Positions 5,289-37,525 of a stretch of 37,666 nt of DNA are shown piece after piece. The stretch comes from Candidatus Abyssobacteria bacterium SURF_5 (GTDB lineage: Bacteria; Abyssobacteria; SURF-5). Position numbers and translations under genes: made by a program. Location of the stretch: assembly GCA_003598085.1 (NCBI GenBank), contig QZKU01000077.1, positions 1 to 37,666 on the forward strand, in the 5' to 3' direction. The number at the start of each line of letters is the position of its first letter. Position 1 is the stretch's first letter. The notes below the pieces were generated by a model. The model was not told where the DNA came from. It saw only the letters and a list, made by a program, of their open reading frames with translations, and made no database searches.

Positions 5289-5328
5289 TTTCGCCATCCC
5301 GATCGGGGTGGACCCGCCGCCTATGCAT

Positions 5329-7806: not shown

Positions 7807-9656
7807 AGAAGTCGCTCCGCCTGTTTCAGAAAAACGCATGCGGCAAAGGGGCGAAGATCAAACCTGACGCGGCCGGCAGACGAAATTAATTCGGGCAGGG
7901 AACCGGCCCGCCCGCCCCATCGAGGATTATGTGCGTCCAGGATTTTTTTCCATTCGCCTTCCGGCAAGGGAACGTCGACCGAATCATTCTCCTTGCGAAA
8001 ATGAAACATGCACGCGACCATTTCGTCTTCTTCCCATCGTCTTACCAGAAGCACCTTTTCAGATTCGAAGGCTCTGACCGCCATGGTTTCTTTCCGCAAA
8101 TGCGCAAGCGCCGGAATTTTTTTGCGCAACCGAATCAGTTCCTTATAAAAAGCGAGAAGCGCTGCATGATGCCCGCTGCTCTTTAACGAATGGTTCAGCT
8201 TGGCGCTGCGAAATGTGTCCTCGCTCTGTGGATCAGGCGGCTCGCCCTCCCATTGGAACTCCAAAAATTCGTCGCGTCGCCCCTTGCGTACCGCCTCGAC
8301 GAGCCGGGGGTCGCCGTGACTGATGAAATAAGGGAAGCGCGCGGTTTCTCCGTATTCCTCTCCCATGAAGAGGAGCGGCAGGAACGGAGAGAGGAGAACG
8401 ACTGCGGCTGCCAGTTTGAGCGCGTCAAATTCAACCAGTTCCGTCAGGCGTTCCCCCTGCATTCGATTGCCCACCTGATCATGGTTCTGCGAAAAAACGA
8501 CAAAACGTTCGGCAGGCGCCTCGCGCGAAGAATTGCCATGGCGCCGCCGCCGATACCGGGAATATTGGCCCGAATAAACATATCCCTCGCGAAAAGACTT
8601 CGCAAGATGGGCAAGTTCCCCGAAATCCTGGTAATATCCGGTTCGCTCGGCAGTCAGAAGAGCCCGCAGAGAGTGGTGAAAGTCATCGCACCACTGCGCG
8701 TCGAGCCCGTATCCGCCAAGCTCCCTCGGCCTGATAAGCCGCGCGTCATTGAGATCGCTCTCCGGGATCAAATATAACCGTCGATTCATTTTTTCCGACA
8801 GTTCGCGGGTGACGACGCCCAGTCTTTCGAGGAACGGCTCGGCCGAAAAATCGAGAATGGCGTGCACTGCATCCAGCCTCAGCGCATCGAAATGAAATTC
8901 CTTCAACCAATAGATGGCGTTCTCAGTGAAGTATCGGCGCACGCCGTCGCTGTATTCGTCATCAAAATTCACAGCCTCTCCCCATGGGGTCTTGTGGCGC
9001 GAGGTAAAATACGGGCCGAACTTTACCAGGTAATTTCCTTCCGGTCCGAGATGGTTGTATACAACATCCAGGACCGCCGCAAGCCCTTTCGCGTGACAGG
9101 CATCTACCAGTCTCTTCAATCCCGCCGGCCCGCCATATGCCGTATGCACCGCAAAAGGATAGGCGCCGTCATACCCCCAGTTCCGAGTACCGGGAAATTG
9201 AACCACGGGCATAAGTTCGACCGCCGTGATCCCGAGGTCCACCAGGTAATCGAGGTGGGGGATAAAAGCATCGAAGGTGCCCTCCGGCGTGTATGTCCCG
9301 ACGTGGACCTCGTACAGGATGTAGTCTTTGAGCGGAAGACCGAACCAGCAGGAGTCATTCCAGGCAAACTCCGAGCTTATTACCTCTGACGGCCCGTGAA
9401 CGCCTTCGGGCTGATATCGAGATGCCGGATCCGGCAGCTCAGCTTCGTCGTCCAGCCGAAATCGGTACCGTGCGCCGGGCTGAATGTCGCTCGCCGCAGT
9501 GCGGAAGTAGCCGAAATCGCCTCCTTCAAGGGGGATCACCGTCTCATGCGGCGAGAGAATATGAAGATCGACTTTCCGGCAGTTTGGCGCCCACACCAGA
9601 AAGTCGCAATTGCCGCCGCCGCGGTAAACGGCGCCGAGGCTGACGTCAAGGTTCAC
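7803..9656 (-). CDS. treZ: Maltooligosyltrehalose trehalohydrolase (GH13_10)
   Basis: TreZ cuts the alpha-1,4 bond next to the trehalose end of maltooligosyltrehalose and frees trehalose. The true start is very probably the GTG at 9656: GAGGAG lies seven bases upstream, and it gives 617 residues beginning MNLDVSLGAVYRGG, whereas the longest frame runs 35 codons back into glgB. An N-terminal CBM48-like beta domain (FLVWAPN) is followed by the GH13 barrel with DVVYNHLGPEGNYL, RLDAVHAI (nucleophile Asp), LIPESDLND (acid Glu) and FSQNHDQVGNR. It overlaps the end of glgB by 11 bases and the GH57 start by 4, so these three genes are translationally coupled. Confidence 0.94.
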   Translation of the reverse strand: MNLDVSLGAVYRGGGNCDFLVWAPNCRKVDLHILSPHETVIPLEGGDFGYFRTAASDIQPGARYRFRLDDEAELPDPASRYQPEGVHGPSEVISSEFAWNDSCWFGLPLKDYILYEVHVGTYTPEGTFDAFIPHLDYLVDLGITAVELMPVVQFPGTRNWGYDGAYPFAVHTAYGGPAGLKRLVDACHAKGLAAVLDVVYNHLGPEGNYLVKFGPYFTSRHKTPWGEAVNFDDEYSDGVRRYFTENAIYWLKEFHFDALRLDAVHAILDFSAEPFLERLGVVTRELSEKMNRRLYLIPESDLNDARLIRPRELGGYGLDAQWCDDFHHSLRALLTAERTGYYQDFGELAHLAKSFREGYVYSGQYSRYRRRRHGNSSREAPAERFVVFSQNHDQVGNRMQGERLTELVEFDALKLAAAVVLLSPFLPLLFMGEEYGETARFPYFISHGDPRLVEAVRKGRRDEFLEFQWEGEPPDPQSEDTFRSAKLNHSLKSSGHHAALLAFYKELIRLRKKIPALAHLRKETMAVRAFESEKVLLVRRWEEDEMVACMFHFRKENDSVDVPLPEGEWKKILDAHNPRWGGRAGSLPELISSAGRVRFDLRPFAACVFLKQAERLL

Positions 9657-11595
9657 CTGTTTTCTCCTCGCACTTGAAGAATACGATCCCCATGGGCGGT
9701 ATCGTCGCCATGAGGAAATTGGGGCGCCCGTGAAACGGGAATGGCGCGGCCTCGATGCCACCCAAATTTCCTTGTCCGCTGCCGCCGTAATCCTTTGAGT
9801 CGCTATTCAGGATTTCCCTCCAGAAGCCCGCGTGCGGAATCCCTATCCTGTAATTATGGCGCGGAACGGGAGTAAAGTTGCATGCAATGACAATGGTGTG
9901 ACTGGGGGAATGTCCTTTCCGCAAGAAAGTGATGACACTCTGCTCCGAATCATTGCAATCGATCCATTCAAATCCATACGGGTCGAAGTCGAATACATGC
10001 ATCGCCGGCTCGGTCCGATACAGCCGGTTGAGGTCTTCAACCCACCGCTTCATCCCCGCATGGAAAGGGAAGTCGAGGAGGTGCCAGTCCAGACTCTTCT
10101 CATGGTCCCATTCATCCCATTGTCCAAATTCCGCGCCCATGAAAAGCAGCTTCTTGCCCGGCTGTCCATACATGTAGCCGAGCAGTAGCCTCAGGTTGGC
10201 GAATTTCTGCCAGTCGTCGCCCGGCATCTTCCGCAAGAGGGAACCTTTTCCATAGACGACCTCGTCATGTGAAAGCGGGAGCACGAAGTTCTCATGGAAT
10301 GCGTACAGCATCCGGAAATTCAACAGCGTGTGATGAAACTTGCGGTGAACCGGGTCTTTCGACATGTATTCGAGGATATCGTGCATCCACCCCATATCCC
10401 ATTTCATGCCGAAGCCGAGGCCGCCCACATATGTGGGCCGGGACACCATCGGCCAGGCGGTTGACTCTTCAGCAATTGTTTGCGCAGTTGGAAAATGCTT
10501 GTAGACCTCCGCGTTGAACCGCCGCAGGAACGCGATAGCCTCCAGATTCTCCTTCCCGCCGAACTCGTTCGGTACCCATTCGCCGTCCTTGCGTGAGTAA
10601 TCGAGGTAGAGCATCGAGGCGACGGCATCGACCCGGAGCGCGTCGATATGATAGGCATCCATCCAGAAGAGGGCGCTGCTGATAAGGAAGCTCCGGACCT
10701 CGTTTCGGCCGTAATTGAAGATGTAGCTGTTCCAATCCGGCTGAATCCCTTTTTTCGGGTCAGCATGTTCGTACACATGGGTCCCGTCAAAGTATCCCAA
10801 TCCGTGTTCATCGCTCGGGAAATGAGAGGGCACCCAATCCAGAATCACGCCGATCTCGTGCTGGTGGAGAAGATCGATCAAGTACATAAAATCTTCCGGC
10901 GGACCATACCGGCTCGTGGGCGCGAAATACCCGAGAGACTGGTATCCCCACGAGCCATAGAAGGGATGCTCCATGACCGGCAGGAACTGAACATGAGTGA
11001 AGCCCGCGCCTTTCACATATTCAGCCATTTTCGGCGCGATCTCCCGGTAGGTCAGGGGCCGCTGCCATTCCTGGGCCATACGCATCCAGGAGCCGAGGTG
11101 CACTTCGTAAATCGAGATGGGGGAGGCATGGGAGTTCCGGCTCTGTCTGTTTTGAATCCATTTCGCATCTCCCCAACTGTAATTCACATCCCAGACGATT
11201 GAGGCCGTTTTTGGGGGGATCTCATAGTAGCGCGCCAAGGGGTCGGCCTTGTCCACCCGGTAATTGTGGTAGCGGGAAACGATGTGATACTTGTAGTGAG
11301 TTCCTTTACCGACTCCCTCGATGAAGCCCTCCCAGATGCCGCTCTGCCCCTTGGGATACAGGGGGTGGCTGGACTTATTCCATTCATTAAAGTCACCCAT
11401 CACAAAGACGCGTTCGGCGCCGGGAGCCCAGACCGAGAAGCAGGTTCCGGCGTTGCCCTCCCGTTCAACCAGATGAGCACCCAACTTATCGAAGAGACGA
11501 AAATGACTTCCCTCATTAAAAAGGTAGAGATCATCCTCGCTGAGCAGCGTTACATCATGCCGGACCTTCGCTCCGGCCGCCGCCGTTTCGTTCAT
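9646..11595 (-). CDS. glgB: 1,4-alpha-glucan branching enzyme (GH13_9)
   Basis: This 649-residue enzyme makes alpha-1,6 branches in the polymer produced by GlgE. An N-terminal CBM48 module (SVWAPGAERVFVMGDFNEW, about 54-72) precedes the barrel. Motifs are DWVPSHFPSDEHGL (253-266), ALRVDAVASMLYLDYSR with nucleophile D323, IAEEST with acid E376, and LSHDEVVYGKGSL. The C-terminal all-beta domain is complete. AAAGGAG five bases upstream fixes the ATG at 11595. The protein lacks the extra N1 domain of the longer enterobacterial form. It follows the treS-maltokinase gene after 42 bases. In GlgE-pathway operons GlgB is the standard partner. Confidence 0.95.
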   Translation of the reverse strand: MNETAAAGAKVRHDVTLLSEDDLYLFNEGSHFRLFDKLGAHLVEREGNAGTCFSVWAPGAERVFVMGDFNEWNKSSHPLYPKGQSGIWEGFIEGVGKGTHYKYHIVSRYHNYRVDKADPLARYYEIPPKTASIVWDVNYSWGDAKWIQNRQSRNSHASPISIYEVHLGSWMRMAQEWQRPLTYREIAPKMAEYVKGAGFTHVQFLPVMEHPFYGSWGYQSLGYFAPTSRYGPPEDFMYLIDLLHQHEIGVILDWVPSHFPSDEHGLGYFDGTHVYEHADPKKGIQPDWNSYIFNYGRNEVRSFLISSALFWMDAYHIDALRVDAVASMLYLDYSRKDGEWVPNEFGGKENLEAIAFLRRFNAEVYKHFPTAQTIAEESTAWPMVSRPTYVGGLGFGMKWDMGWMHDILEYMSKDPVHRKFHHTLLNFRMLYAFHENFVLPLSHDEVVYGKGSLLRKMPGDDWQKFANLRLLLGYMYGQPGKKLLFMGAEFGQWDEWDHEKSLDWHLLDFPFHAGMKRWVEDLNRLYRTEPAMHVFDFDPYGFEWIDCNDSEQSVITFLRKGHSPSHTIVIACNFTPVPRHNYRIGIPHAGFWREILNSDSKDYGGSGQGNLGGIEAAPFPFHGRPNFLMATIPPMGIVFFKCEEKTGEP

Positions 11596-11637
11596 GTTTT
11601 CTCCTTTCCAAATGCATTCTCGCCGAACAAGAAAACG

Positions 11638-14600
11638 CTATGACTCCATTAGTTTTTGAATTCCGCGAATCGGTATCCGCACCCAATTCGGCCGGTGATT
11701 GAGCTCATACCCCAATTCATAAATGGCTTTTTCCAGCAGGTAAAGGTCGAGAAGGACCCGAAGCTCCTCTCTTTCTTTTGGGAGGAAGGCACTCTGACCC
11801 GCCGGTTCCAGATACGACTGCAGAAACAATGCAGCGATCCACGTGTACCAGAACAGGGCCCACCGTTCAACGTAGGGCAAGTCCTCCGGGCGAATCAGAC
11901 CCCGTTCTTCTTGAGAAAAAATCGCCGAATAGGCGGCGTAATGAAATGAGCGCAGCATTCCCGCCACGTCGCGCAGGGGAGACCGCTTGATCCTGCGCTC
12001 GGAAATGGGGCGGGCCGGCTCTCCTTCGAAATCGATAATGACAAAATCCTTTCCCGTAAAGAGCAATTGCCCCAGGTGATAATCTCCATGACATCGAATT
12101 CGCATCGCAGTCACTTTCCTATCTACGAGAGAGCGGAAGCGGGAAAGGATTTCTTTCTCTTGCGCCGAAATTTGCTGAGCCTCCAGCCGGATTCCCTCGG
12201 GCAGGATCTTCATGAACTGATTCAAGAGCCCGAATGACTTAAGCGTCAAGTTACGCATCGATTGGTACAGTGACCGCTGGTATAATTTTGAGAACGGCTC
12301 GGGCGCAAAATCGGGATTTTCGCGGTTGGATGCCAATGCCACATGCAACTCGGCCGTGCGCCGCCCGATGAGGCGCGCCGCTTCCATATATGGGCCTATC
12401 ATTTCCTGTGCGAGATCAGACGGCTCCTTCCCGACAAGTTCCAGCGGGTGCATCGCGGGAACCGCCGGCTCGGCTTCGCGAGTCGTTCGCGCAAGCGCAT
12501 TTTCATAGTAATGTCCAAGATGTTCGAGCGTGTATCGCCACGCGTCGCCTTCGTTCGGAATGAAGTTCATGAGGATCGCGACTGTGGTTGGTTCGGCTCC
12601 CTTTACGCGATATTCTATGGCGCCGGCAACCGGGGCAATGGAAACATTGCGTTCGTTCAGAAACAGTCCGATCTCGAGGTCTGGATTGATCCCCCTGTCG
12701 GGGCGCCGAAACAGCTTCAAGATATATCGATCGCCATAGATAATCGAGGTGTTGCTCTGTTCCACATTGGGGATGAAAGGTTCGAGCGGCGGCTCCGTCT
12801 TGCGGGGTCTCCGGAAGAAACGAGTGGTAGTGGCGAACAATTCGCCGCGCCGTCCTTTTCGGCGATGATGCGATGCAATAACATGGAAGAGTTCGAAGGA
12901 AAATTGCTTATCCACCAGCGCGTCGTACAGGATTCCGGTTTCATTTTTCGATTTCACCTGCACGCGCGCGACAGTGGAGAGCGGGTGCTCCTTCATCAAA
13001 GCGTCGGCCTGCTCTCCGGCGACATAATTGAGAGGAAGCACGTATTCCTCTGAATCCCGGTCCAGATAATCCACGCGCACGATTGTTAGATGCGCCAGCA
13101 ATTGTTTATCCGGTATGGGAATAGCTTCGATTATCTCTGTCAAACTTACCTTCTGGGCTTTGCCGCCGAACCACCTGCATGATTTCAGGTATCCGGGGAG
13201 ATGCGCCTCGAGCTCTTCCTTTGCTTTTCCCCGAAACACCGATTCCCAATCCTTTGCGACTGTCAGAAGCGGCAACTCAAGCACATGACTGGCGACTTCC
13301 ATGCTTTCTTTCGTTTCACGCTTGGACTCGAGCAAAAACCAGTAGAACGAGTGTGGACCGAGCGTCAGCAGGTATGGCAATTCGCTCACCGCCGGGAATT
13401 CCGTTCGCCCGAACAATTCGATCGGGACAACCCCCTGGTATGCAGAAAGATCCAATTCGACGTATTGCACGAACCGGGACAGATTTGCGACAATCAGTAT
13501 TCGTTCCTCCTGGTATTCGCGAATATATGCGAGTATTTTTGGATTCGCTGGATTCAGGAATTGTATCGAGCCGCGTCCGAAGGCCTGGAATCGCCTCCGG
13601 AGCGAGATGAGGCGTTTCATCCACCACAACAACGAACTGGGATTATTCTGCTGCGCTTCCACGTTCAGTGATTCGTAATGGTATTCCGGATCGATGATGA
13701 CGGGCAGGTACAGCTTCTGCGGATTGGCGGAGGAAAAGCCTGCATTGCGGTCGGCGCTCCACTGCATCGGGGTCCGGACACCGTTGCGATCGCCCAGATA
13801 GTAATTATCGCCCATCCCGATCTCGTCGCCGTAATAGATGACAGGGGTGCCCGGCAGCGAGAGCAGGAGCCCGTTCATCATTTCGATGCGGCGGCGGTTG
13901 TTTTCCAAAAGCGGAGCCAACCGTCTGCGGATTCCGAGATTCACCCGCATTCGAGGGTCCTGCGCGTACACCCTGTACATGTAATCCCGGGCCTCATCCG
14001 TCACCATCTCGAGCGTCAGCTCGTCGTGGTTGCGAAGAAAGAGCGCCCACTGACAAGAGTCGGGAATGGCCGGCGTCTGATCGAGTATGTCGATTATCGG
14101 GAAGCGATCCTCCATCCGAAGCGCCATGAACATGCGCGTCATCAAGGGGAAATGGAAAGCCATGTGGCATTGATCGCCTTCGCCGAAGTACGCGACTGCA
14201 TCCTCAGGCCATTGATTCGCTTCTCCGAGGAACATGCGGTTCTTGAACCGCTTGTCGACGTGCGCCCTGAGCTTCTTGAGAAACTCGTAGGTTTCCGGAA
14301 GGTTCTCACAGTTTGTGCCGTCGCGTTCATAGAGATAGGGGACCGCATCCAAGCGCAGGCCGTCAACCCCAAGACTGAGCCAAGAGTCGATCACGCGCAG
14401 CATTGCTCGCTGAACGTCCGGATTATCGTAATTCAGGTCCGGCTGATGCGAATAGAAACGGTGCCAGTAATATGCCTTAGCCAGGTGATCCCAGCTCCAA
14501 TTAGACGGTTCGAAATCCCGGAAAATTATCCGGGCTTCCTCGTACCGCTCCCGAGTATCGCTCCATACGTAGAAGTTGCGCCACCGCGAGTTCGGAGCGG

Positions 14601-14985
14601 CCCTTCGTGCTCGCTGAAACCAGATGTGCTGATCGGATGTATGGTTCAGAACAAGCTCGGTAATCACGCGGATTCCGCGCTCATGCGCGCCGCCCAGGAA
14701 CTCCTTGAAATCGCGCAGGTTCCCGTATGCGGGATTGATATCCGTATAACTGGATATATCGTACCCGTCATCTCGCAGAGGGCTGGGGCAGAACGGGGTT
14801 AACCAGATAGCGGTGATTCCGAGGTCTTGCAGATAATCGAGCTTTTCGGCCAGTCCCCGAAAATCTCCGGTTCCGTCGCCGTCACTGTCGCGGAAAGCGC
14901 GCACGTGCGCCTCATAAACAACAGCATCTTTGTACCAGTATGGATCGTCTTCCAACGCGACAAATTCTTTCGGCCCGAGCTTCAT
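11638..14985 (-). CDS. treS: Trehalose synthase / maltokinase fusion
   Basis: This 1115-residue bifunctional protein interconverts trehalose and maltose (TreS, about 1-560) and phosphorylates maltose with ATP to maltose-1-phosphate (Mak/Pep2, about 590-1115). TreS motifs are ELVLNHTSDQHIWFQ (110-124), GLRLDAVPYLYERDG with D213, FLGEANQWPED with E255, and FLRNHDELTLEMV with D321. The C-terminal part has the aminoglycoside-phosphotransferase-like catalytic loop CHGDYHLGQLL and the metal site VIIDFEGEP. GAGGGAG seven bases upstream supports the ATG, 13 bases after the glgE stop. Such fusions are known in several phyla and channel trehalose toward GlgE. This is the ATP-consuming step of the locus. 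Confidence 0.95.
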   Translation of the reverse strand: MKLGPKEFVALEDDPYWYKDAVVYEAHVRAFRDSDGDGTGDFRGLAEKLDYLQDLGITAIWLTPFCPSPLRDDGYDISSYTDINPAYGNLRDFKEFLGGAHERGIRVITELVLNHTSDQHIWFQRARRAAPNSRWRNFYVWSDTRERYEEARIIFRDFEPSNWSWDHLAKAYYWHRFYSHQPDLNYDNPDVQRAMLRVIDSWLSLGVDGLRLDAVPYLYERDGTNCENLPETYEFLKKLRAHVDKRFKNRMFLGEANQWPEDAVAYFGEGDQCHMAFHFPLMTRMFMALRMEDRFPIIDILDQTPAIPDSCQWALFLRNHDELTLEMVTDEARDYMYRVYAQDPRMRVNLGIRRRLAPLLENNRRRIEMMNGLLLSLPGTPVIYYGDEIGMGDNYYLGDRNGVRTPMQWSADRNAGFSSANPQKLYLPVIIDPEYHYESLNVEAQQNNPSSLLWWMKRLISLRRRFQAFGRGSIQFLNPANPKILAYIREYQEERILIVANLSRFVQYVELDLSAYQGVVPIELFGRTEFPAVSELPYLLTLGPHSFYWFLLESKRETKESMEVASHVLELPLLTVAKDWESVFRGKAKEELEAHLPGYLKSCRWFGGKAQKVSLTEIIEAIPIPDKQLLAHLTIVRVDYLDRDSEEYVLPLNYVAGEQADALMKEHPLSTVARVQVKSKNETGILYDALVDKQFSFELFHVIASHHRRKGRRGELFATTTRFFRRPRKTEPPLEPFIPNVEQSNTSIIYGDRYILKLFRRPDRGINPDLEIGLFLNERNVSIAPVAGAIEYRVKGAEPTTVAILMNFIPNEGDAWRYTLEHLGHYYENALARTTREAEPAVPAMHPLELVGKEPSDLAQEMIGPYMEAARLIGRRTAELHVALASNRENPDFAPEPFSKLYQRSLYQSMRNLTLKSFGLLNQFMKILPEGIRLEAQQISAQEKEILSRFRSLVDRKVTAMRIRCHGDYHLGQLLFTGKDFVIIDFEGEPARPISERRIKRSPLRDVAGMLRSFHYAAYSAIFSQEERGLIRPEDLPYVERWALFWYTWIAALFLQSYLEPAGQSAFLPKEREELRVLLDLYLLEKAIYELGYELNHRPNWVRIPIRGIQKLMES

Positions 14986-14998
14986 TCGGATGCTCCCT

Positions 14999-16984
14999 CT
15001 ACATGAAATAATCGAAATCTCTTTCCGTCCGAATCCGCCTCCGGATTCGAAACAGGTGTGCGGGAACCACGTTCGGGTCTATCTCGACGTAGTTTCTCGA
15101 GCCGTACCACAGGTACCGCGCGCCGCTCAACAGATCGTGCGCCTGGTAGGACTGATGCGGATCGAGCCCGAACAGCGAAAGCGGGATGTCGAGCCAGCCC
15201 GCATGCGCATGATGCGCATCCAGGTTGACTACCGCCAGGATGATATCGCTCAAGTCGTCCGTATGCTTGCTGTAGCAAATGAGCTGTTCGTTGCTGATCG
15301 CATGAAAACGCAGGTTCCGACCGCTTTGCAGCGCGGGATTTTCCCGGCGCAGCTTGTTGACCATCGCGATGAGATGCTTGAGACTGTCAGACCGATCAAT
15401 GTCCCAATACCGTATCTCGTACTTCTCGCTGCCAAAGTATTCCTCGCTTCCAAATTCGCGCGCGCGGTCCTCGCACAACTCAAAGGCAGGCCCATATATC
15501 CCATAGCTGGCGCCGAGGGTGGCCGCAAGGATAAAGCGGATCATGAAAGCGGGGCGGCCGCCCATCTGGAGATATTCCGTGAGGATATCGGGCGTGTTCG
15601 GCCACAGGTTCGGTCGAAAAAACTCGCTGACTTCCGTCTGTGTGAGCTCCGCGAAATACTGCTCGAGTTCCCATTTCGTATTTCGCCAAGTGAAATACGT
15701 GTAGGACTGGCTGAACCCCACCTTTGCAAGGTCATACATGACCTTTGGACGCGTGAACGCCTCGGAGAGAAAGAGGATGTCCGGGCGAACCGATCGAACT
15801 TCTGCGATCAACCACTCCCAGAACTGAAATGGTTTGGTATGCGGATTATCAACCCGAAAAATGGTTACTCCCTGTTCGATCCAGAAGAAAACGATCTTTC
15901 GGATCTCTTCCCACAGCTTTCGCCAGCTATCAGATTCAAAGTTGAAGGGATAGATGTCCTCATATTTCTTTGGCGGGTTCTCGGCGTATTGTATAGTTCC
16001 GTCGGGACGCCAGCGGAACCATTCAGGGTGGTCTTTGACATATGGATGATCGGGAGTTCCCTGAAGCGCGAGATCGATCGCGGTTTCAACCCCTAATTCT
16101 TTCCCCTTTTCAACGAGCCGGCGGAAATCCTCAAGTGTACCCAACTGCGGGTGCACCGCCATGTGTCCGCCTTCCGAGGAGCCAATGGCCCATGGACTGC
16201 CGGGATCGTCGGGGCCGGCATCCGGTCGATTGTTTCTTCCCTTGCGGTTGGTTGTGCCAATCGGATGTATCGGGGGGAGGTAAAGGACGTCGAACCCCAT
16301 CGACGCGATGTACGGGAGCCGCTTTTCGCAATCGGCGAACGTGCCGTGCCGGCCGGGCTCGGCACTGCAGGAGCGGGGGAACATTTCGTACCAGGCGCTG
16401 AACTGCGCCTTGGTGCGGTCCACGAAGACAACCAATTCTTTTCCGTAGCCGGTGGCGAAACGTCTATCCGGATATTTTGCCATTAAACTTGCGGGTTCAT
16501 CTCCGAACGACAGGTCGAACGCCGTTTGATCGTCGGGTACCGTTCTCAAAGCTCGGGCCAAATCCTGAAGCCTTTCGGCATCGGGACCGGATGCCCGTCC
16601 GGCGGCCTCACCAAGGAGGTCCGCGCCAATGAGAAGATCAACCCGCGTGCCTGTTCCCGCATTCGCTTTTTTGGCTAAATCGGCGCGCCACGTTTTAAAA
16701 CGATCCACCCACGCCTCAATTGTGTAGCGGTAAAAGCCTATCTCGTCAACCGGAAATTGGCCTTCCCAACGGTCGTTCACCAGGTACTTCATGTGGGTCT
16801 CGTTCCAGACGGGAGCGCCCTCCTTCTTATGACAGAGGACCGCGGAGAGAGAATCATGCCCATCTGCAAAGATATCCGCTCGAACAGTCACCTTCTCGCC
16901 CACAACTCGTTTGATCGGAAAGCGGCCGCAGTCGATCTCAGGCCTCACCCGTTCAATTACAACTCGTTTTCTGCCTTCATCCAT
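14999..16984 (-). CDS. glgE: Alpha-1,4-glucan:maltose-1-phosphate maltosyltransferase (GH13_3)
   Basis: GlgE transfers maltose from maltose-1-phosphate to the non-reducing end of alpha-1,4-glucan, giving linear polymer. The start chosen (ATG at 16984, CAGGG eight bases upstream) gives 661 residues beginning MDEGRKRVVIERVRPEID, the family N-terminus. Longer frames reach a TTG at 17047 without a ribosome-binding site. Domains: an N-terminal beta and helical-bundle part (1-210), then the barrel with LYLPPIHPIG, FRVDNPHTKP (nucleophile D379), FLSEAFTRP (acid E408), and PNLWPNTPDILTEYLQ with the third carboxylate, then a beta domain. It is the first gene of the seven-gene operon and the committed polymer-building step, since no glgA or glgC lies in the window. 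Confidence 0.95.
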   Translation of the reverse strand: MDEGRKRVVIERVRPEIDCGRFPIKRVVGEKVTVRADIFADGHDSLSAVLCHKKEGAPVWNETHMKYLVNDRWEGQFPVDEIGFYRYTIEAWVDRFKTWRADLAKKANAGTGTRVDLLIGADLLGEAAGRASGPDAERLQDLARALRTVPDDQTAFDLSFGDEPASLMAKYPDRRFATGYGKELVVFVDRTKAQFSAWYEMFPRSCSAEPGRHGTFADCEKRLPYIASMGFDVLYLPPIHPIGTTNRKGRNNRPDAGPDDPGSPWAIGSSEGGHMAVHPQLGTLEDFRRLVEKGKELGVETAIDLALQGTPDHPYVKDHPEWFRWRPDGTIQYAENPPKKYEDIYPFNFESDSWRKLWEEIRKIVFFWIEQGVTIFRVDNPHTKPFQFWEWLIAEVRSVRPDILFLSEAFTRPKVMYDLAKVGFSQSYTYFTWRNTKWELEQYFAELTQTEVSEFFRPNLWPNTPDILTEYLQMGGRPAFMIRFILAATLGASYGIYGPAFELCEDRAREFGSEEYFGSEKYEIRYWDIDRSDSLKHLIAMVNKLRRENPALQSGRNLRFHAISNEQLICYSKHTDDLSDIILAVVNLDAHHAHAGWLDIPLSLFGLDPHQSYQAHDLLSGARYLWYGSRNYVEIDPNVVPAHLFRIRRRIRTERDFDYFM

Positions 16985-17063
16985 AAGAAAACCCTGCTTC
17001 TGATCATTGGCGGGGCTCTTGGTACACATCGCCAACAAAGTGATCAAGAGGATAACTTTTTAT

Positions 17064-29310: not shown

Positions 29311-29913
29311 TCAGGTTCCTTCGCGCAGGCGGCGCTCCCAGTCGAACTCGCGACCGGTGACGATGCTCTCCATGTGCTGAATTCGGCGATCAAGGTTGTC
29401 GAACGTGCGCTTCAAGCGTTTCACGGCCATCGTGCGGGAATTCATATAACTGTTGTAGAATTCCTCCGCCTCTTCCGTCTGCAGCGGCAGGACAGGCTCG
29501 GGCTTGATGAGAAACGCTGCGAGTACATACAGAATCGCGATGGGCCAAATTCCGGAGAGAATGAGGAGCACGAGGGCGAGAATCCGCGTCCAGCCGACCG
29601 ATAGATCAAAATATTCGGCGATCCCCTTGCAGACGCCGAGGATCATTCCGCTGCGAGAACGATACAGCCTCCGGGGAGAACGCGCCGGTCTCTCTTCCGC
29701 CGAATAGGGCGCCGGCTTCATCAGCAGGGCCGCGAGGATATACAACACGGCTACCGGCCAGAACCCCGTCAGGATAAATGCGACCACCGTGATAATCCTG
29801 AGCCAACCAACGGAAAATCCGAAGTAATCGGCGACCCCTTTGCATACACCGAGAATCATGCCGTCGCGGGCGCGATACAGGCCCGTCATGCCCATCCCGT
29901 CAAGCAGATTCAT
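29311..29913 (-). CDS. pspC: Tandem PspC-domain membrane protein
   Basis: This 200-residue protein has two PspC domains, about 10-70 and 83-145, each with the signature GMILGVCKG followed by a membrane segment. The copies are closely similar (YFGFSVGWLRII and YFDLSVGWTRIL), indicating an internal duplication. The C-terminal 55 residues form a charged, coiled-coil-prone tail. I placed the start at the ATG at 29913, with AAAGGA upstream; it overlaps pspB by 14 bases. PspC is the envelope-stress sensor that with PspB recruits PspA to the inner membrane. The tandem layout differs from the single-domain enterobacterial PspC but is seen in other phyla. Confidence 0.85.
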   Translation of the reverse strand: MNLLDGMGMTGLYRARDGMILGVCKGVADYFGFSVGWLRIITVVAFILTGFWPVAVLYILAALLMKPAPYSAEERPARSPRRLYRSRSGMILGVCKGIAEYFDLSVGWTRILALVLLILSGIWPIAILYVLAAFLIKPEPVLPLQTEEAEEFYNSYMNSRTMAVKRLKRTFDNLDRRIQHMESIVTGREFDWERRLREGT

Positions 29914-30154
29914 TGACTCTTTCCTTTCGTTCCCGCTCAAGAAGAATTGTCTCCAGCGCCTCGACTCGCTTCTCCATTCGGAGCAGGCCGTCGTGCAACT
30001 CCTGTATCATTTGCGTCTCGCCTTTCTGATCCGCGCCGCGAAGTCGAGGAAAGCTGTCTTTAGGCCGTTTGATCGCCACGATGGTTGCAGCGATGATGCC
30101 CATGGCTATCAATACGGAACTCAGAACGATGCCAACTATGATCACGCCGGTCAT
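29900..30154 (-). CDS. pspB: PspB-like phage shock protein
   Basis: This 84-residue protein has one N-terminal membrane helix (about 3-27) and a C-terminal amphipathic segment, MIQELHDGLLRMEKRVEALE, matching the PspB coiled-coil pattern, ending near TILLERE. Length and layout fit PspB. The start codon overlaps the stop of the 61-residue gene as ATGA, and AAGGA eight bases upstream is the ribosome-binding site. It should pair with PspC in the inner membrane to sense damage and bind PspA. Confidence 0.8.
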   Translation of the reverse strand: MTGVIIVGIVLSSVLIAMGIIAATIVAIKRPKDSFPRLRGADQKGETQMIQELHDGLLRMEKRVEALETILLERERKERVNESA

Positions 30155-30336
30155 TTGTCTGGTCCTTCTTCCGTTCTCTCCGTTAAAGTATTCCGTCGTC
30201 TCTGTCGCTTGGGAGCAGTCGAAAAAACGATGTCATCTCTCAAACGGGCGATGATCTGCTCCAACTCCTTGACCTGGTTCGTATCCAAATCTATTGAATT
30301 GGATGCTCTTTTTCCCGACTCTACATACTTTAACAT
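30151..30336 (-). CDS. Unknown 61-residue protein in the psp operon
   Basis: Not recognised. The ATG at 30336 has GGGAG eight bases upstream, and the stop overlaps the pspB start in an ATGA junction, so it is very probably translated. A GTG at 30345 is the alternative start. The protein has no membrane segment. Its middle (TNQVKELEQIIARLRDDIVF) is predicted helical, and its C-terminus is rich in Arg, Lys and Glu (KRQRRRN). It sits between pspA and pspB, where it could bind PspA or modulate PspF. This is an inference from position only. Confidence 0.65.
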   Translation of the reverse strand: MLKYVESGKRASNSIDLDTNQVKELEQIIARLRDDIVFSTAPKRQRRRNTLTERTEEGPDK

Positions 30337-30376
30337 AAAGTTCACTCCCGTTGGAAGAGCGCCCGCCGCTTAATCA

Positions 30377-31105
30377 TTAAGCCGAAGGGCTGTCCCCGCC
30401 CTGAGAGGGCGGCGCATCGCTGGATTTCCGAGGATCGGCCTCTCGCGATTTTTCGGCTGAATCCTTCAGATCCTGTAATTCCTGCTCTATCTCTTCATCG
30501 CCCTCGAGGCCTGCGAATTCATCCTCCAATGAGGATTTTCTTCCGAAATTCACGAGATCGGCCTCCGCCTCCATCCGCTCGATGCGGTTCTCGAACTGCT
30601 CGAATCGAATGAATGCATCCGAGGTCTCCATACGCCTGATATCCAGCTGCGCCCGCTTCTTCTTCTGCGCATGAGTATGCCGCTTCACAAGAATGCGCTG
30701 CTTCTCGCGCGCAGCCGTCAGCTTTTCCTCGAGTTGAACAATATCCGCCTGATACTGCTCTATCAGCGTAGTGCAGTCGGTCGCTTCCTTCTCCAGCGAT
30801 GCGGCGCGCTCCTGGAATCGGCGCTTTTCCAGCAATGCCTCGCGACCCAGGTCCTCGCGACCCTTTTCTACCGCCAGCTTCGCGCGCTCGCCCCACTGGC
30901 CCGCCTTCGCGATCGCCTCCTCGCGCGCGCGCTGCACCTTCTTCACGGCCGCCATCACGTCCGCACACGACGCCCTGATCTCGACCAGCGTGTCTTCCAT
31001 CTCCTGGATCATCAGGCGGATCAGTTTTTCCGGGTCCTCCGCCTTGTCCAGCATTGAATTAATGTTCGAATTGATGATGTCTCGCACTCTCGTGAAGATC
31101 CCCAT
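30377..31105 (-). CDS. pspA: Phage shock protein A (PspA/IM30 family)
   Basis: This 242-residue coiled-coil protein has the amphipathic N-terminal membrane-binding helix MGIFTRVRDIINSNINSML and the conserved DKAEDPEKLIRLMIQEME block, then long heptad-rich helices, and an acidic, Ser/Pro-rich tail of about 30 residues (after residue 210) that is longer than in E. coli. PspA oligomerises on damaged inner membrane and in the resting state restrains PspF. GGGAGG before the ATG at 31105 fixes the start; the longest frame extends 23 codons further without support. First gene of the psp operon, behind a sigma-54 type promoter. Confidence 0.94.
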   Translation of the reverse strand: MGIFTRVRDIINSNINSMLDKAEDPEKLIRLMIQEMEDTLVEIRASCADVMAAVKKVQRAREEAIAKAGQWGERAKLAVEKGREDLGREALLEKRRFQERAASLEKEATDCTTLIEQYQADIVQLEEKLTAAREKQRILVKRHTHAQKKKRAQLDIRRMETSDAFIRFEQFENRIERMEAEADLVNFGRKSSLEDEFAGLEGDEEIEQELQDLKDSAEKSREADPRKSSDAPPSQGGDSPSA

Positions 31106-31146
31106 TGTATGCCTCCCTTTTTGATGATTCCTGATGGCTGTGAATA

Positions 31147-31162
31147 GGCACAAACCATGCCA
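31147..31162 (-). promoter_or_regulatory. Sigma-54 promoter of the psp operon
   Basis: On the minus strand TGGCATGGTTTGTGCC matches TGGCACG-N4-TTGCW with GG and GC exactly 10 bases apart; the -24 box is six of seven, the -12 box keeps the GC. Transcription would start near 31136, leaving about 30 bases before pspA. A PspF-type activator is encoded divergently 154 bases away, which strongly supports the call. Confidence 0.7.
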
Positions 31163-31222
31163 TGGCCGCTTCAAATCTCATAAGACATTGGAAATACAAC
31201 GCTTATATATATTTAATTCCAC

Positions 31223-31251
31223 TTGCTACTTTTAAATTCTTATGGTATAAT
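31223..31251 (+). promoter_or_regulatory. Extended -10 sigma-70 promoter of pspF
   Basis: TTGCTA and a perfect TATAAT are separated by 17 bases, and TGG directly before the -10 gives the extended -10 motif TGnTATAAT. The start near 31258 leaves about 58 bases of leader. The AT-rich stretch between this promoter and the sigma-54 promoter is the place to look for PspF binding sites. Confidence 0.65.
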
Positions 31252-31315
31252 GTTTCGAAAATTAGTTTTGTAAACCATCGAATGGCAAAATTAACCACCT
31301 AAAGGACAGGCGGAG

Positions 31316-32341
31316 ATGGGCGTAAGAAGAGATGAAGCACGGAGGGCGGGCATCGGGGAGGCGCTCGGACAATCGGAAGTATTCCTTGATTTCCAGGAGC
31401 GCCTGTCGCGTGTGGCGCGCGTGGATCGGCCGGTGCTTCTGATAGGGGAGCGGGGAACCGGCAAAGAGCTCGCCGCTTCAAAACTTCACTATCTCTCAGC
31501 CCGATGGCAGGGGCCGCTGGTAGCCTTGAACTGTGCGGCATTGGCGCCCACGCTGATCGAGTCGGAATTATTCGGTCATGAGGCCGGCGCGTTTACCAGC
31601 GCGCGCGGGCGGCGCAAGGGCCGGTTCGAAGCCGCTCATGGGGGCACTCTGTTTCTCGACGAGGTAGGGAGCATTCCCATTGAGGTTCAGGAAAAGATAC
31701 TTCGCGCGGTCGAGTATCGGAGTTTTGAGCAGGTGGGCAGTTCGGAGCAGGTGCATGTCGACGTGCGCATCATCGGCGCCACCAACGCGGACCTGCCCGC
31801 CCTGGTCGAGAGCGGGGAATTCAAGCGCGATCTGCTCGATCGGCTGTCGTTTGAAGTCTTGTTTCTGCCGCCGCTGCGCGAGCGGAAGGGGGACATTGCG
31901 CTGCTCGCAAGGCATTTCGCGTCGCGGATGTCATTCGAAATGGGGCGCGACGGCGTAGTCGAATTCAGCGATGGCGCCATTGGAGCGCTTGAGCGGTATC
32001 ACTGGCCGGGCAACGTTCGCGAGCTCAAGAACGTGGTCGAGCGCGCCGTGTATCGTGCTGATTCTCTCCTGATCGACCGTATCGAATTTGATCCGTTCCG
32101 CGATCCGTACGAACGGAACTGGGTTCAGAATCAAGTTGCTTCAGAAGACCGGCATGAAGCGCAAAAGAAATCTGACGGTGTACGTCGGCCGCTCATGCAG
32201 GCGGTTGAGGAACTTGAGATGAATCTGATCAGCAAAGCGCTCGAGGAGTCACGATACAATCAAAAAAAAGCAGCCTTCCTCCTCGGGCTGACGTATGATC
32301 AGTTCAGGGGATTGTACCGGAAATACAAGAAGCGGCTGTAG
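31316..32341 (+). CDS. pspF: PspF-type sigma-54 activator (AAA+)
   Basis: This 341-residue enhancer-binding protein lacks an N-terminal sensory domain, as PspF does. The AAA+ domain starts directly: Walker A GERGTGKE (44-51), loop GAFTSA (91-96) in place of GAFTGA, Walker B GGTLFLDE (109-116), sensor I region RIIGATNADL, arginine-finger region FKRDLLDRLSFEVL, and sensor II WPGNVRELKNVVERAVY. A linker and a Fis-type helix-turn-helix at about 315-340 (NQKKAAFLLGLTYDQFRGLY) end the protein. It should activate the divergent psp operon and be held inactive by PspA. The ribosome-binding site AAAGGA is nine bases from the ATG. Confidence 0.9.
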   Translation: MGVRRDEARRAGIGEALGQSEVFLDFQERLSRVARVDRPVLLIGERGTGKELAASKLHYLSARWQGPLVALNCAALAPTLIESELFGHEAGAFTSARGRRKGRFEAAHGGTLFLDEVGSIPIEVQEKILRAVEYRSFEQVGSSEQVHVDVRIIGATNADLPALVESGEFKRDLLDRLSFEVLFLPPLRERKGDIALLARHFASRMSFEMGRDGVVEFSDGAIGALERYHWPGNVRELKNVVERAVYRADSLLIDRIEFDPFRDPYERNWVQNQVASEDRHEAQKKSDGVRRPLMQAVEELEMNLISKALEESRYNQKKAAFLLGLTYDQFRGLYRKYKKRL

Positions 32342-33873: not shown

Positions 33874-34590
33874 CTATCTTTGCCGTCCCAAAAAGTTCCA
33901 TCGGGATGAAGGCGCCTTCCGCACTCTGATCACAATCAGAAAACCATCCTTCCGATGCGGGGGAAACCTCTCTTCCGTCTCGACTATTGTCCAGTCGAGT
34001 TTCGTCTTCTCATAATGCTTCAAATATTCCATCAGATCAACAACATCCTCTTTCTCGAAAACATGAAAATGAATATTGATCGGTCTTCCTGCTCGAATGT
34101 CATTTTCGCACGAGCGGCGGTATTCCTCACGGGCGCGCGGAATATCGGCGGAACGCAAATCCGGCCTCATCTGTTGGAAATCGGCGCGAGTGACAAAATC
34201 GTCGATATGTGTCGGATCGCAGTCGGTCGTGGCTCGCTCGAAATCGGAGATGAGATGCGAGAGGGGAGTCCTTTCCCTGAATCGATCAAAGGTAAACCTT
34301 CGGTCCGGCACCACCAGGTACACTATTCCGCCCGCCCGTACGATTCGGTTCCATTCCACGAGCGCCCGTATCGGATTGGCAAGATGCTCAAGAAGATGGG
34401 AGGAAGCTATATAATCGAGCGAGTCGTCTTTGAACGGGAGGATGCTTGCGTCGCTGATTGCGTCGACAAGGCACTTTGCGTGGGCAAATTCGAAAAACCG
34501 ATCGACATAGATGGGTCGTATTCCCTCGATAGGCAGGTCATGCGCGCCAATCTCTATTCCTCGTCCCCGCAGCCATTTGTTTCTTCTCAT
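33874..34590 (-). CDS. Class I SAM-dependent methyltransferase
   Basis: This 238-residue protein has motif I GRGIEIGAHDLP very near its N-terminus (9-20), an acidic end of strand 2 (YVDRF), the LPFKDDSLDYIASSHLLEHL motif of Methyltransf_11-type enzymes, and GGIVYLVVPD. The substrate is unknown. The C-terminal third (INIHFHVFEKEDVVDLMEYL) resembles the tail of sugar- or lipid-modifying methyltransferases, which is weak evidence. The ribosome-binding site is poor. It is the third gene of a minus-strand cluster after the J-like gene and the unknown helical gene, 24 bases downstream of the latter. It converges on the DUF445 unit, with no obvious terminator in the 45-base gap. Confidence 0.72.
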   Translation of the reverse strand: MRRNKWLRGRGIEIGAHDLPIEGIRPIYVDRFFEFAHAKCLVDAISDASILPFKDDSLDYIASSHLLEHLANPIRALVEWNRIVRAGGIVYLVVPDRRFTFDRFRERTPLSHLISDFERATTDCDPTHIDDFVTRADFQQMRPDLRSADIPRAREEYRRSCENDIRAGRPINIHFHVFEKEDVVDLMEYLKHYEKTKLDWTIVETEERFPPHRKDGFLIVIRVRKAPSSRWNFLGRQR

Positions 34591-34614
34591 AATGCACGCC
34601 GGATGCCGGCTTCT

Positions 34615-35589
34615 TCAAACGGTGGAAAGCATTTCTGGCGGCAGGAGGAATTCGATGAGCGACTTGCCTTCGCGAAGTATCGGCACGAGCTTCGTTTTCT
34701 CTTTAATCCTTCGAATGCAAACGCACAGCGCCGCCAGCGGGTGCTCGTAGGATAATTCGCGCAGATACTGCCATGCCTCATCGGTTCCGGTTGGTCTGTT
34801 CAGGAGCAGAGGACCGATCGGCGAGTAGTCATCGGGTTTCCCGTCGCGAATGGCCGAAAACAGGTCGGCCGCCTTTCGAAGATTTTCCACGAGAAGATGA
34901 ATATCTTCATCTCGATACTGCGCGAGCACGCCCAGAATTGCTCGCTTCTGCTCAAGAGATGCCAATGAGAGCAGCCGTTGCGACAAAGCGTCATGCGCCA
35001 GCAGATATTGAATGCCTGCATCGATCAGTTCTTCGATGGGCAAGATCGTGACGCATGTCTTCGGCTGGCGCAAACAGGTGGAATGCAATTGAGGCCCCAG
35101 GTACTGAAAATTCGGACCCACCGGCTGATCCAGGCTGGAAGCGACCAAAAAAGACATTGCGGCGTGTGAGGTCTTGCCTTCGCGCAGGAATTGCTCGCCG
35201 CGCTGCGAATATAATGCAACCATTTCCTTCTTGATCCCGAGCAGGCGATATGCATCCTCGGCATATGCGAATTTTCCTCTGATGACCGCATTCTTTGCGG
35301 TCTCTTCCAGAAGGGTTCCCGGAATCGCATCGCCCTCGAGGTCTTGCTTCTCGATCAGGTCAAGCGCCGATTTGAACTCAGCGCAATCCATGGTCGCCTG
35401 ATCAGGAAGCAGGTAGGCTACGTGCTGCATGAGGATTTTGTTCACCTGCGAATCGTCTCCGACCGGCGCGAATTCCTTCAAGCTGGAGAACAGCTCGTGG
35501 AAGGCATAGGTATTGCCGGCTGTGAGCGCGTGGGCGATTACGAGCTTCTTCAACTCACGAATGGTTTGAACGTTTTGAATATCTGTCAT
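34615..35589 (-). CDS. Unknown helical protein in the J-like cluster
   Basis: Not recognised. This 324-residue soluble protein is almost wholly predicted helical, with repeated Leu/Ala-rich stretches such as GKFAYAEDAYRLLGIKKEMV and GKTSHAAMSFLVASSLDQPV that have a TPR-like look without a clear consensus. There is no signal peptide or membrane segment. The start lies four bases after the stop of the J-like gene, so the two are probably translated together. A scaffold or adaptor role with the J-like protein is plausible from context only. Base composition matches the neighbours. Confidence 0.6.
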   Translation of the reverse strand: MTDIQNVQTIRELKKLVIAHALTAGNTYAFHELFSSLKEFAPVGDDSQVNKILMQHVAYLLPDQATMDCAEFKSALDLIEKQDLEGDAIPGTLLEETAKNAVIRGKFAYAEDAYRLLGIKKEMVALYSQRGEQFLREGKTSHAAMSFLVASSLDQPVGPNFQYLGPQLHSTCLRQPKTCVTILPIEELIDAGIQYLLAHDALSQRLLSLASLEQKRAILGVLAQYRDEDIHLLVENLRKAADLFSAIRDGKPDDYSPIGPLLLNRPTGTDEAWQYLRELSYEHPLAALCVCIRRIKEKTKLVPILREGKSLIEFLLPPEMLSTV

Positions 35590-35593
35590 GCGT

Positions 35594-36217
35594 TCACCAA
35601 ATACAACAGTCTTTCACAAGTTGATCGACAATCGCGTCGATCTCCTCGCCGCGCTTCTTCCGCATTTCCTGAATTGCGGGAAATCCGCGCCAGTCGATTC
35701 GAAAGGAAACACGGCGTCCCTTCTGCTCTGCTTTCCGCAGGAGGTCAGCCCGTTGCGAGCTTATCCATTCCATCACGTTATCGGGCGGAACGGATTCGAA
35801 TTTTCGGGTTTTGGCGGCTGCAAAGAGTTGGTCGTAATAGAAATCGGACAGCGCCGCATTGGCTGCATCGAGCTGCAGCGAGACGTTCTTCAACTTTTCG
35901 TCTTCTTCAATCGATTGCTGCTCCTGGAGCTTGCCCGCGCGTTTGGCTTCTATCTTTTCCTTCTCAGTCTGTATCTTTCTGACTTCATTGAGGCGCGCGT
36001 CGAAAAGAGAACGCTTTTTTGAATCCAGGAGCACGAGCTTTGCCGCATCTGCGGCAACAAGCGCAAGGATCGCGGCTTTCCTCTCTTCAGCAGGCATGTC
36101 CTCCGGACGAAGAGAGGCGGTCGCTTCCTCGTACGCCTTCTGTATGTCAGGCTCCTGTGCGTTCGACTGAACACTGAGAACCTTATAGAAATTGTACTGG
36201 TCAGAATTCTGTGCCAT
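35594..36217 (-). CDS. Degenerate J-domain-like protein
   Basis: This 207-residue protein starts with a J-domain-like segment: YNFYKVLSV, then EPDIQKAYEEATA, and SKKRSLFDARL near 66-76, corresponding to helices I, II and III-IV of DnaJ. The HPD tripeptide needed to stimulate DnaK is missing; the position reads RPEDMPAE. A strongly charged helix or coiled coil follows (about 75-115), then a C-terminal part, with CCIW as the end. Loss of HPD usually means a scaffold role rather than Hsp70 co-chaperone action. It is the first gene of a three-gene cluster and has no strong ribosome-binding site before its ATG. Confidence 0.55.
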   Translation of the reverse strand: MAQNSDQYNFYKVLSVQSNAQEPDIQKAYEEATASLRPEDMPAEERKAAILALVAADAAKLVLLDSKKRSLFDARLNEVRKIQTEKEKIEAKRAGKLQEQQSIEEDEKLKNVSLQLDAANAALSDFYYDQLFAAAKTRKFESVPPDNVMEWISSQRADLLRKAEQKGRRVSFRIDWRGFPAIQEMRKKRGEEIDAIVDQLVKDCCIW

Positions 36218-36286: not shown

Positions 36287-36347
36287 GGGGACAGACACCA
36301 TTCTATGAATTCAAAAAGGCGTGAATTCCGTAAATGGAGTCAGTCCC
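36287..36347. repeat. 61-bp imperfect palindrome (REP/MITE type)
   Basis: The left arm GGGGACAGACACCATT pairs with the right arm AATGGAGTCAGTCCC with two mismatches. Inside, two GAATTC copies flank a loop AAAAAGGCGT, so the whole 61 bases can fold into one long hairpin. The GGGGACAGACACC core is the kind of sequence often seen flanking or left behind by Y1-type REP-associated transposases, though none lies in the window. Its right arm contains the stop codon of pcm. Confidence 0.65.
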
Positions 36348-37098
36348 GGCCGTGTGTTTGCGCCTCGCCTGTCATCGGGACGAAACGAACAGGCAGATCC
36401 ATCTGTTCGGTCACCCCGTCCGGTCCTTTCGTCAAAATGATAATCCTCTGGTACAGGCTGCCAACCGGAATCACCATCCGGCCGTTCTCCTTCAGTTGCT
36501 CGACGAGCGGCTGAGGAATATGATCGGGGGCCGCGGTAACAATGATTGCATCGAACGGCGCGTGTTCGGGCCATCCCTGATAACCGTCGCCCGCCTTGAC
36601 GTGCACGTTCCGATATCCGAGTCTCGCAAGCGTGCGTTCGGCGTCTCGTGCCAGCGACTCGAGGATCTCGATTGTATACACCTGGCCCGCGATCTCCGCG
36701 AGGACCGCAGCCTGATACCCCGAGCCGGTGCCGATCTCCAACACCTTCTCGCCGCCCTCCAGCCCCAGAGCTTGCGTCATGTACCCGACAATATACGGCT
36801 GCGAGATGGTTTGATCAAGGCCTATCGGCAGCGGACGATTGTCATATGCGGCGGCGCGAAAACGTTTCGGCACGAACTCGTGCCGCGGCACTTTTCTCAT
36901 CGCCGCCAGCACCTTCGGATCGGAGACCCCCTGCGCGTGGATCTCGTTGATCAATCGATCCCAAAGGATCTGGGTCGCCTGTTCAACCTTCTGTGTTCCG
37001 GCGGTGACGGGCGCCGGGTTCTCTGCGCGTTCGGCGCAAGCAAATGGCGCAAGTGCTGCAATTAATGCAAGAATGATGAAAACCCGATACTTGAGCAC
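36340..37098 (-). CDS. pcm: Exported protein-L-isoaspartate O-methyltransferase
   Basis: This 252-residue protein methylates isoaspartyl residues in damaged proteins using S-adenosylmethionine. The family blocks are present: [29 protein letters not shown], motif [40 protein letters not shown] and [12 protein letters not shown]. An N-terminal signal peptide (about 1-22, likely cleavage after ACA) sends it to the periplasm, unlike the cytoplasmic enterobacterial enzyme. The start is a GTG with GAGGG upstream and an extended -10 promoter behind it. The last few codons and the stop lie in the right arm of the palindrome at 36287-36347, so the native C-terminus may have been altered. Confidence 0.9.
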
Positions 37099-37217: not shown

Positions 37218-37267
37218 CGCCGAAGCATTATTCCCCCTTTACGAAAGGGGGACTAAGGGGGATTTCC
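37218..37267. repeat. Hairpin repeat block, copy 1
   Basis: 50 bases containing CCCCCTTT-ACG-AAAGGGGG (37233-37251), an 8-bp perfect stem, followed by ACTAAGGGGGATTT. It matches copy 2 except for a few bases, including the loop. Confidence 0.75.
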
Positions 37268-37302
37268 TCTTCTTCTATTGACCCTGCGCATAGTCCAAAC
37301 AG

Positions 37303-37333: not shown

Positions 37334-37448
37334 TAACCGCCTGACCTTGCCTTCCAATCCAAAATCGGCAATCCAAAATCTAAAATGGAGAAACCACCAA
37401 TGGACGCCGCTGTAGGGCATGGCGTGACGCGCCCATCGATTCTGACAT

Positions 37449-37498
37449 CGCCGAAGCATCATTCCCCCTTTACCAAAGGGGGACTAAGGGGGATTTCC
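37449..37498. repeat. Hairpin repeat block, copy 2
   Basis: Second copy of the block, 231 bases after the first, with stem CCCCCTTT-ACC-AAAGGGGG at 37464-37482. The loop changed from ACG to ACC while the stem stayed intact. Confidence 0.75.
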
Positions 37499-37525
37499 CC
37501 CCTTCTTCCGCGTCTCTCTGCCGTC

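Follow-up and report, generated by a model that had tools for sequence, protein, structure and literature searches.

The stretch of DNA analysed here (the window; 37,666 nucleotides) is a single contig of the 5.1 Mb genome of Candidatus Abyssobacteria bacterium SURF_5 (genome G000). The genes of principal concern, listed in the order in which they are read, are as follows.

36340..37098, minus strand: pcm, protein-L-isoaspartate methyltransferase (Pfam PCMT, E=3.1e-65), 122 nt upstream of the J-like gene
35594..36217, minus strand: J-like protein of 207 amino acids (P0001), with a DnaJ-type domain at about residues 9-73 in which R-P-E replaces H-P-D, and long predicted helices thereafter
34615..35589, minus strand: helical protein of 324 amino acids (P0002), member of an unnamed family (P324) with relatives in three phyla
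33874..34590, minus strand: class I SAM-dependent methyltransferase of 238 amino acids (Pfam Methyltransf_11, E=1.7e-9)

The J-like gene is separated by 4 nt from the P324 gene, which in turn is separated by 24 nt from the methyltransferase gene, and the three-gene layout described in an earlier note on this DNA was confirmed in its coordinates, gaps and common minus strand. The product of pcm is apparently exported, as judged from a signal read in its N-terminal sequence. Comparison within the source phylum covered three genomes (G000, G001 and G002), and pcm was found to adjoin the J-like/P324 pair in G000 and G001, the G001 copy being 69% identical and in the same place. At E<=1e-20, isoaspartate methyltransferase genes numbered two in G000 (window 36340-37098 and C42:37904-38488) and two in G001 (C42 and C249), while the single match in G002 was 53% identical to the copy next to the J-like gene and thus about as far from it as the second copies.

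The J-like segment of P0001 is a genuine DnaJ-type domain. Thus, residues 9-73 matched Pfam DnaJ with a score of 29 bits, slightly exceeding the curated cut-off (27.8), and a phmmer search of PDB sequences returned mainly J domains, the best match being to the J domain of DNAJB8 (E=1.8e-7). An AlphaFold model built from a two-sequence alignment had a mean pLDDT of 76.6, with residues 11-80 at 85-95 in blocks of ten, and J domains were among the best Foldseek rows for this model (2dmx, 1.5 Å over 65 columns; 6rzy, 1.5 Å over 66 columns, TM 0.84 by target length), the best E being 0.01 and no row reaching 0.001. Comparisons of the model with J domains by VIA-align gave Z values of 7-8, which are middling for a helical model, and VIA-align rows that paired the model with unrelated helical bundles were set aside. 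These results uphold the relationship to DnaJ on which the earlier note had staked its reading. Pfam DnaJ was also matched at E<=0.1 by 21 of 28 J-like members of a second phylum, that of genome G278 (best E=3.1e-7), which may be Hydrogenedentota. The relative in G001 is 50% identical to P0001, and a search of 386 genomes with P0001 as sole query (E<=1e-6) returned P0001 itself and the G001 protein and no others. Searches of PADLOC and PHROGs yielded no useful name, the sole PADLOC match being weak (E=0.004, residues 39-137).

Compared with canonical DnaJ/Hsp40 proteins (PF00226), the J-like protein shares the J fold and clear sequence similarity but differs in the absence of HPD, in a changed loop, in a longer stretch before helix III and in the remainder of the protein, which is unlike DnaJ. 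With the full-length DnaJ model TIGR02349 it scored only 28.6 bits, against a cut-off of 377.2, over residues 9-91, and it thus lacks the DnaJ architecture beyond the J domain. The position of HPD is occupied by R-P-E in the window, as the earlier note had recognised in calling the motif lost, and by N-P-D in the G001 relative. Among 60 aligned copies (58 from G278's phylum and two from the source phylum) HPD was kept in none; histidine was lost in all 60, its column holding V, L, I or M in most (56 of 60), glutamate was the commonest residue in the D column (50 of 60), and the 58 copies from G278's phylum had neither H nor P at the aligned columns. Since HPD-bearing DnaJ genes were also present in the six genomes checked, which belong to two phyla (G000, G001, G002, G278, G441 and G451), the J-like protein is an extra.

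The 324-residue partner, which the earlier note had described as matching nothing known, is indeed without a family match: Pfam and NCBIfam searches of P0002 with E up to 10, in which HMMER filters drop most matches above 0.1, returned nothing, and P324 thus constitutes a protein family absent from the versions of Pfam and NCBIfam searched. The relative in G001 is 55% identical. No match to P0002 as sole query was noted in a genome contig collection, in which a two-sequence P324 alignment found one locus, apparently the G001 contig, and no P324 match was noted in viral contigs. In the 386 genomes, the two-sequence profile matched G278 (E=5e-21), G136 (4e-18), G273 (1.5e-13) and G141 (3e-12). 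Further matches in G149, G031 and G237 (E=0.004-0.008) and at another site in G136 (E=0.001) were set aside as probable chance similarity of a TPR-like kind, and all were absent when a larger profile was used at the stricter cut-off of E<=1e-5. This larger profile, built from 29 sequences of which five are from genomes of the 386-genome set, matched six of the 386 genomes, in three phyla. P324 is possibly TPR-like. Thus, TPR_16 was matched by seven of 29 family members (best E=8.3e-4), and the family profile showed weak, repeat-like similarity to TPR proteins in its middle, the best PDB match being the TPR domain of OGT (E=0.01 over the whole sequence, with single stretches weaker); this similarity is, however, not significant and was not seen for P0002. 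The model of P0002 was poor (mean pLDDT 53), and its fold matches, none of which was below E 0.4, were set aside.

The J-like and P324 genes were neighbours in both source-phylum genomes that contain them, separated in G001, which is of a second genus, by 286 nt and followed there by a transporter gene, and both were absent from G002, which is 91% complete. In G278's phylum, the P324 family was found in 63 of 68 genomes, among them all 38 with a completeness of 90% or more and a contamination no higher than 5%, with a single match in 61 of the 63 and two in G397 and G443. Sixty-two loci were examined (L023, L024 and 60 more), G397 being omitted because of split hits. In 58 of these, including those of G278 and G141, P324 is immediately preceded by the J-like gene on the same strand, and the remaining four (L064, L079, L098 and L109) are cut off by the end of the contig, either inside the gene or within about 105 nt of it; the two genes therefore adjoin in 58 of 58 loci where the contig extends far enough. 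Gaps between them, measured with script-picked start codons at the 28 J-bearing loci among L029-L058, ranged from -8 to +70 nt and were 5 nt or less in 19, of which seven overlapped. These findings strongly support a fixed, conserved and old two-gene unit.

Both genes were shown to be under purifying selection. Thus, dN/dS was below 0.30 for the J-like gene and below 0.27 for P324 in all pairs for which the ratio was defined (24 of 30 per gene), although these pairs overlap and dS was often saturated. Distances between J-like proteins and between P324 proteins were correlated over 56 loci (r=0.83, compared with a maximum of 0.20 among 1000 label shuffles), and 29 of the 53 splits in each tree were held in common. 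The correlation reflects shared ancestry in large part, since the partial r fell to 0.56 when signal peptidase was used as a control (21 loci).

Neighbouring genes in G278's phylum were less constant than the pair. Downstream of it, where at least 2.5 kb of sequence was available in 48 of the 62 loci, signal peptidase I was encoded on the same strand no more than 3.5 kb away in 33 loci, a metallophosphoesterase in 34 and a PHP protein in 21. Upstream, where at least 2.5 kb was available in 46 loci, ClpS and ClpA appeared on the other strand within 4.5 kb in six and seven loci, respectively, and GroEL preceded the pair in one locus; ClpA and GroEL were named by sequence reading and the remaining families by family search. 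Upstream neighbours are thus variable and downstream ones common yet not fixed, the J-like gene being the one that is fixed. None of the secretion-linked neighbours of this phylum was seen next to the pair in the window.

A third phylum differed in yielding P324 but no HPD-less J. The family was present in seven of eight genomes, and no HPD-less J was found among the nine J hits read, which did not include L154 or L155 and all of which bear HPD; G456 yielded no J hit. P324 can therefore work without an HPD-less J protein. In G136, G452, G454 and G455, P324 directly follows a uridine-kinase-like gene; that of G273 is not preceded by one, and the contigs of G456 and G457 start inside P324. At L025 (8781-10064), L162, L163 and L164, the P324 relatives were of 418-433 amino acids and followed uridine-kinase-like genes encoding 555-618 amino acids, upstream of which were similar small genes, named like the others from sequence reading.

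The J-like proteins of the two phyla that have them are far apart, since a J profile from G278's phylum, searched against the 386 genomes at E<=1e-9, recovered only G278 and G141 and missed G000 and G001. Direct comparison of profiles of the two groups gave E=2.7e-4 and a probability of 42%, over the J part only, and in a tree the two groups fell together, apart from 16 canonical DnaJ domains, with a support of 73 and long branches. Orthology of the two groups would thus rest largely on gene position, together with the shared loss of histidine, the J-part profile match and the tree support of 73.

Several known systems resemble the pair in part. Pfam scans of P0001 and 28 relatives showed no match to Pam16, which has a model in Pfam, and none to the CJD1/CPP1 family, which was sought by Pfam scan only. 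Complexes of CbpM with CbpA and of DafA with Thermus DnaJ, in which bacterial proteins are likewise complexed with J proteins, appeared in the Foldseek list of the J-like model owing to their J domains; CbpM and DafA, however, bind ordinary HPD-bearing J proteins. According to the portion of PMC3806816 available to us, Pam16 (Tim16) is a degenerate J partner of Pam18 in the mitochondrial import motor and thus, like the protein described here, an HPD-less J-like protein that acts via a fixed partner, although P324, unlike the HPD-bearing J protein Pam18, is no J protein. Similarly, the available portion of PMC3196505 describes chloroplast CJD1 as an HPD-less J-like protein that did not rescue E. 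coli dnaJ cbpA, did not bind Hsp70 in yeast two-hybrid experiments and did bind ARC6; in contrast with our pair, CJD1 is a protein with transmembrane segments, and a J-like domain is present in ARC6 as well. These last two parallels are analogies, not kinship.

On balance, we lean towards a dedicated complex in which the J-like domain would serve as a docking module rather than as an activator of DnaK, and which would take part in the handling of exported or damaged proteins. According to this proposal, a two-gene operon supplies an HPD-less J-like protein and a helical, possibly TPR-like P324 protein, which most likely bind one another. The docking role is suggested because the J fold is kept while the residues that trigger DnaK are gone, which would leave a binding surface without Hsp70 activation, and through this surface the J-like domain might link P324 to a third protein, for which clients, canonical J proteins and factors of the membrane or of secretion are candidates. 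The proposed cellular role derives from gene neighbours only, namely signal peptidase I, which is frequent, ClpS/ClpA, which are occasional, a single GroEL and the isoaspartate-repair enzyme in the phylum of the window. A bolder form of the proposal, which we advance only tentatively, is that the pair represents an undescribed chaperone-like two-protein machine, part of the core of a phylum, in which a J-like protein permanently uncoupled from Hsp70 and a dedicated new helical partner act at a stage of export or quality control.

Other readings of the pair appear less probable. The J-like protein might, like Pam16, pair with canonical DnaJ in a J:J-like heterodimer that restrains or positions the DnaK cycle, with P324 as the site adaptor. 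We consider this rather unlikely, for although HPD-less Pam16/Tim16 binds and regulates an HPD-bearing partner according to the available portions of PMC3806816 and PMC3196505, and canonical DnaJs exist in the genomes checked, the Pfam scans lacked a Pam16 match, canonical DnaJ was not among neighbour families found in five or more genomes, and the fixed genetic partner, P324, has no J domain in Pfam. It is more doubtful still that a drifted motif retains weak J activity towards DnaK, to which P324 would present clients. The proline of R-P-E and N-P-D and the still recognisable J domain are in keeping with such activity, but the absence of both H and P from the 58 copies of G278's phylum, the loss of histidine from all 60, the lengthened region before helix III and the failure of the HPD-less J-like domain of CJD1 to rescue dnaJ cbpA, as described in the available portion of PMC3196505, all argue against it. 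The tight operon of unknown proteins could also suggest an anti-phage or other mobile system; however, the pair is near-universal and mostly single-copy in one phylum, J and P324 distances track each other and in part those of a housekeeping gene, and the sole PADLOC match (E=0.004) was weak, so that we give this idea almost no credence.

The remaining alternative concerns the methyltransferase, which the earlier note had included in a trio of fixed partners and made the effector of the complex. On this reading, the J-like protein and P324 would recognise a target and the methyltransferase would modify it once bound. The location of this gene on the same strand after only 24 nt and a composition not far from that of the J-like gene speak for such an arrangement. 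The gene has, however, no match in G001 or G002 at E<=1e-10, its place after P324 is taken in G001 by the transporter, and phmmer searches of the 62 loci in G278's phylum returned a single weak match (L110, E=6e-4), which was on the opposite strand and about 2.4 kb away. The notion of fixed partners thus holds for the J-like protein and P324 and fails for the methyltransferase, which is probably a passenger beside the pair in this one genome, and joint action of the three appears very unlikely; the trio falls by the test that the earlier note had itself set, occurrence of the three genes together elsewhere. Of twelve window genes measured, the methyltransferase gene had the lowest GC3 (0.569), which is a weak sign of recent arrival since the J-like gene was next lowest (0.596).

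A literature search returned no published account that we recognised as describing the J-like/P324 pair. The HPD-less J-like proteins in the available portions of PMC3196505 and PMC3806816 are those of chloroplasts and mitochondria, whereas those described here occur throughout a bacterial phylum with a fixed, unnamed partner. The pair would thus offer a simple, testable case of the role of a J fold that no longer activates Hsp70, beside ordinary DnaJ in the genomes checked.

Other features of the window were noted in passing. Genes resembling the stress-response genes for PspC-type, PspA and PspF proteins lie near the J-like pair at 29311-32341, and a run of glycogen/trehalose-type enzymes, including several GH13-like genes on the minus strand, occupies 1002-17047, these names being from sequence reading. 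A palindrome-bearing repeat of about 45 bp (ccccctttacgaaaggggg...), found by eye, has two near-identical copies, at 37221-37270 and 37446-37500, in the end region of the window, which is apparently noncoding.
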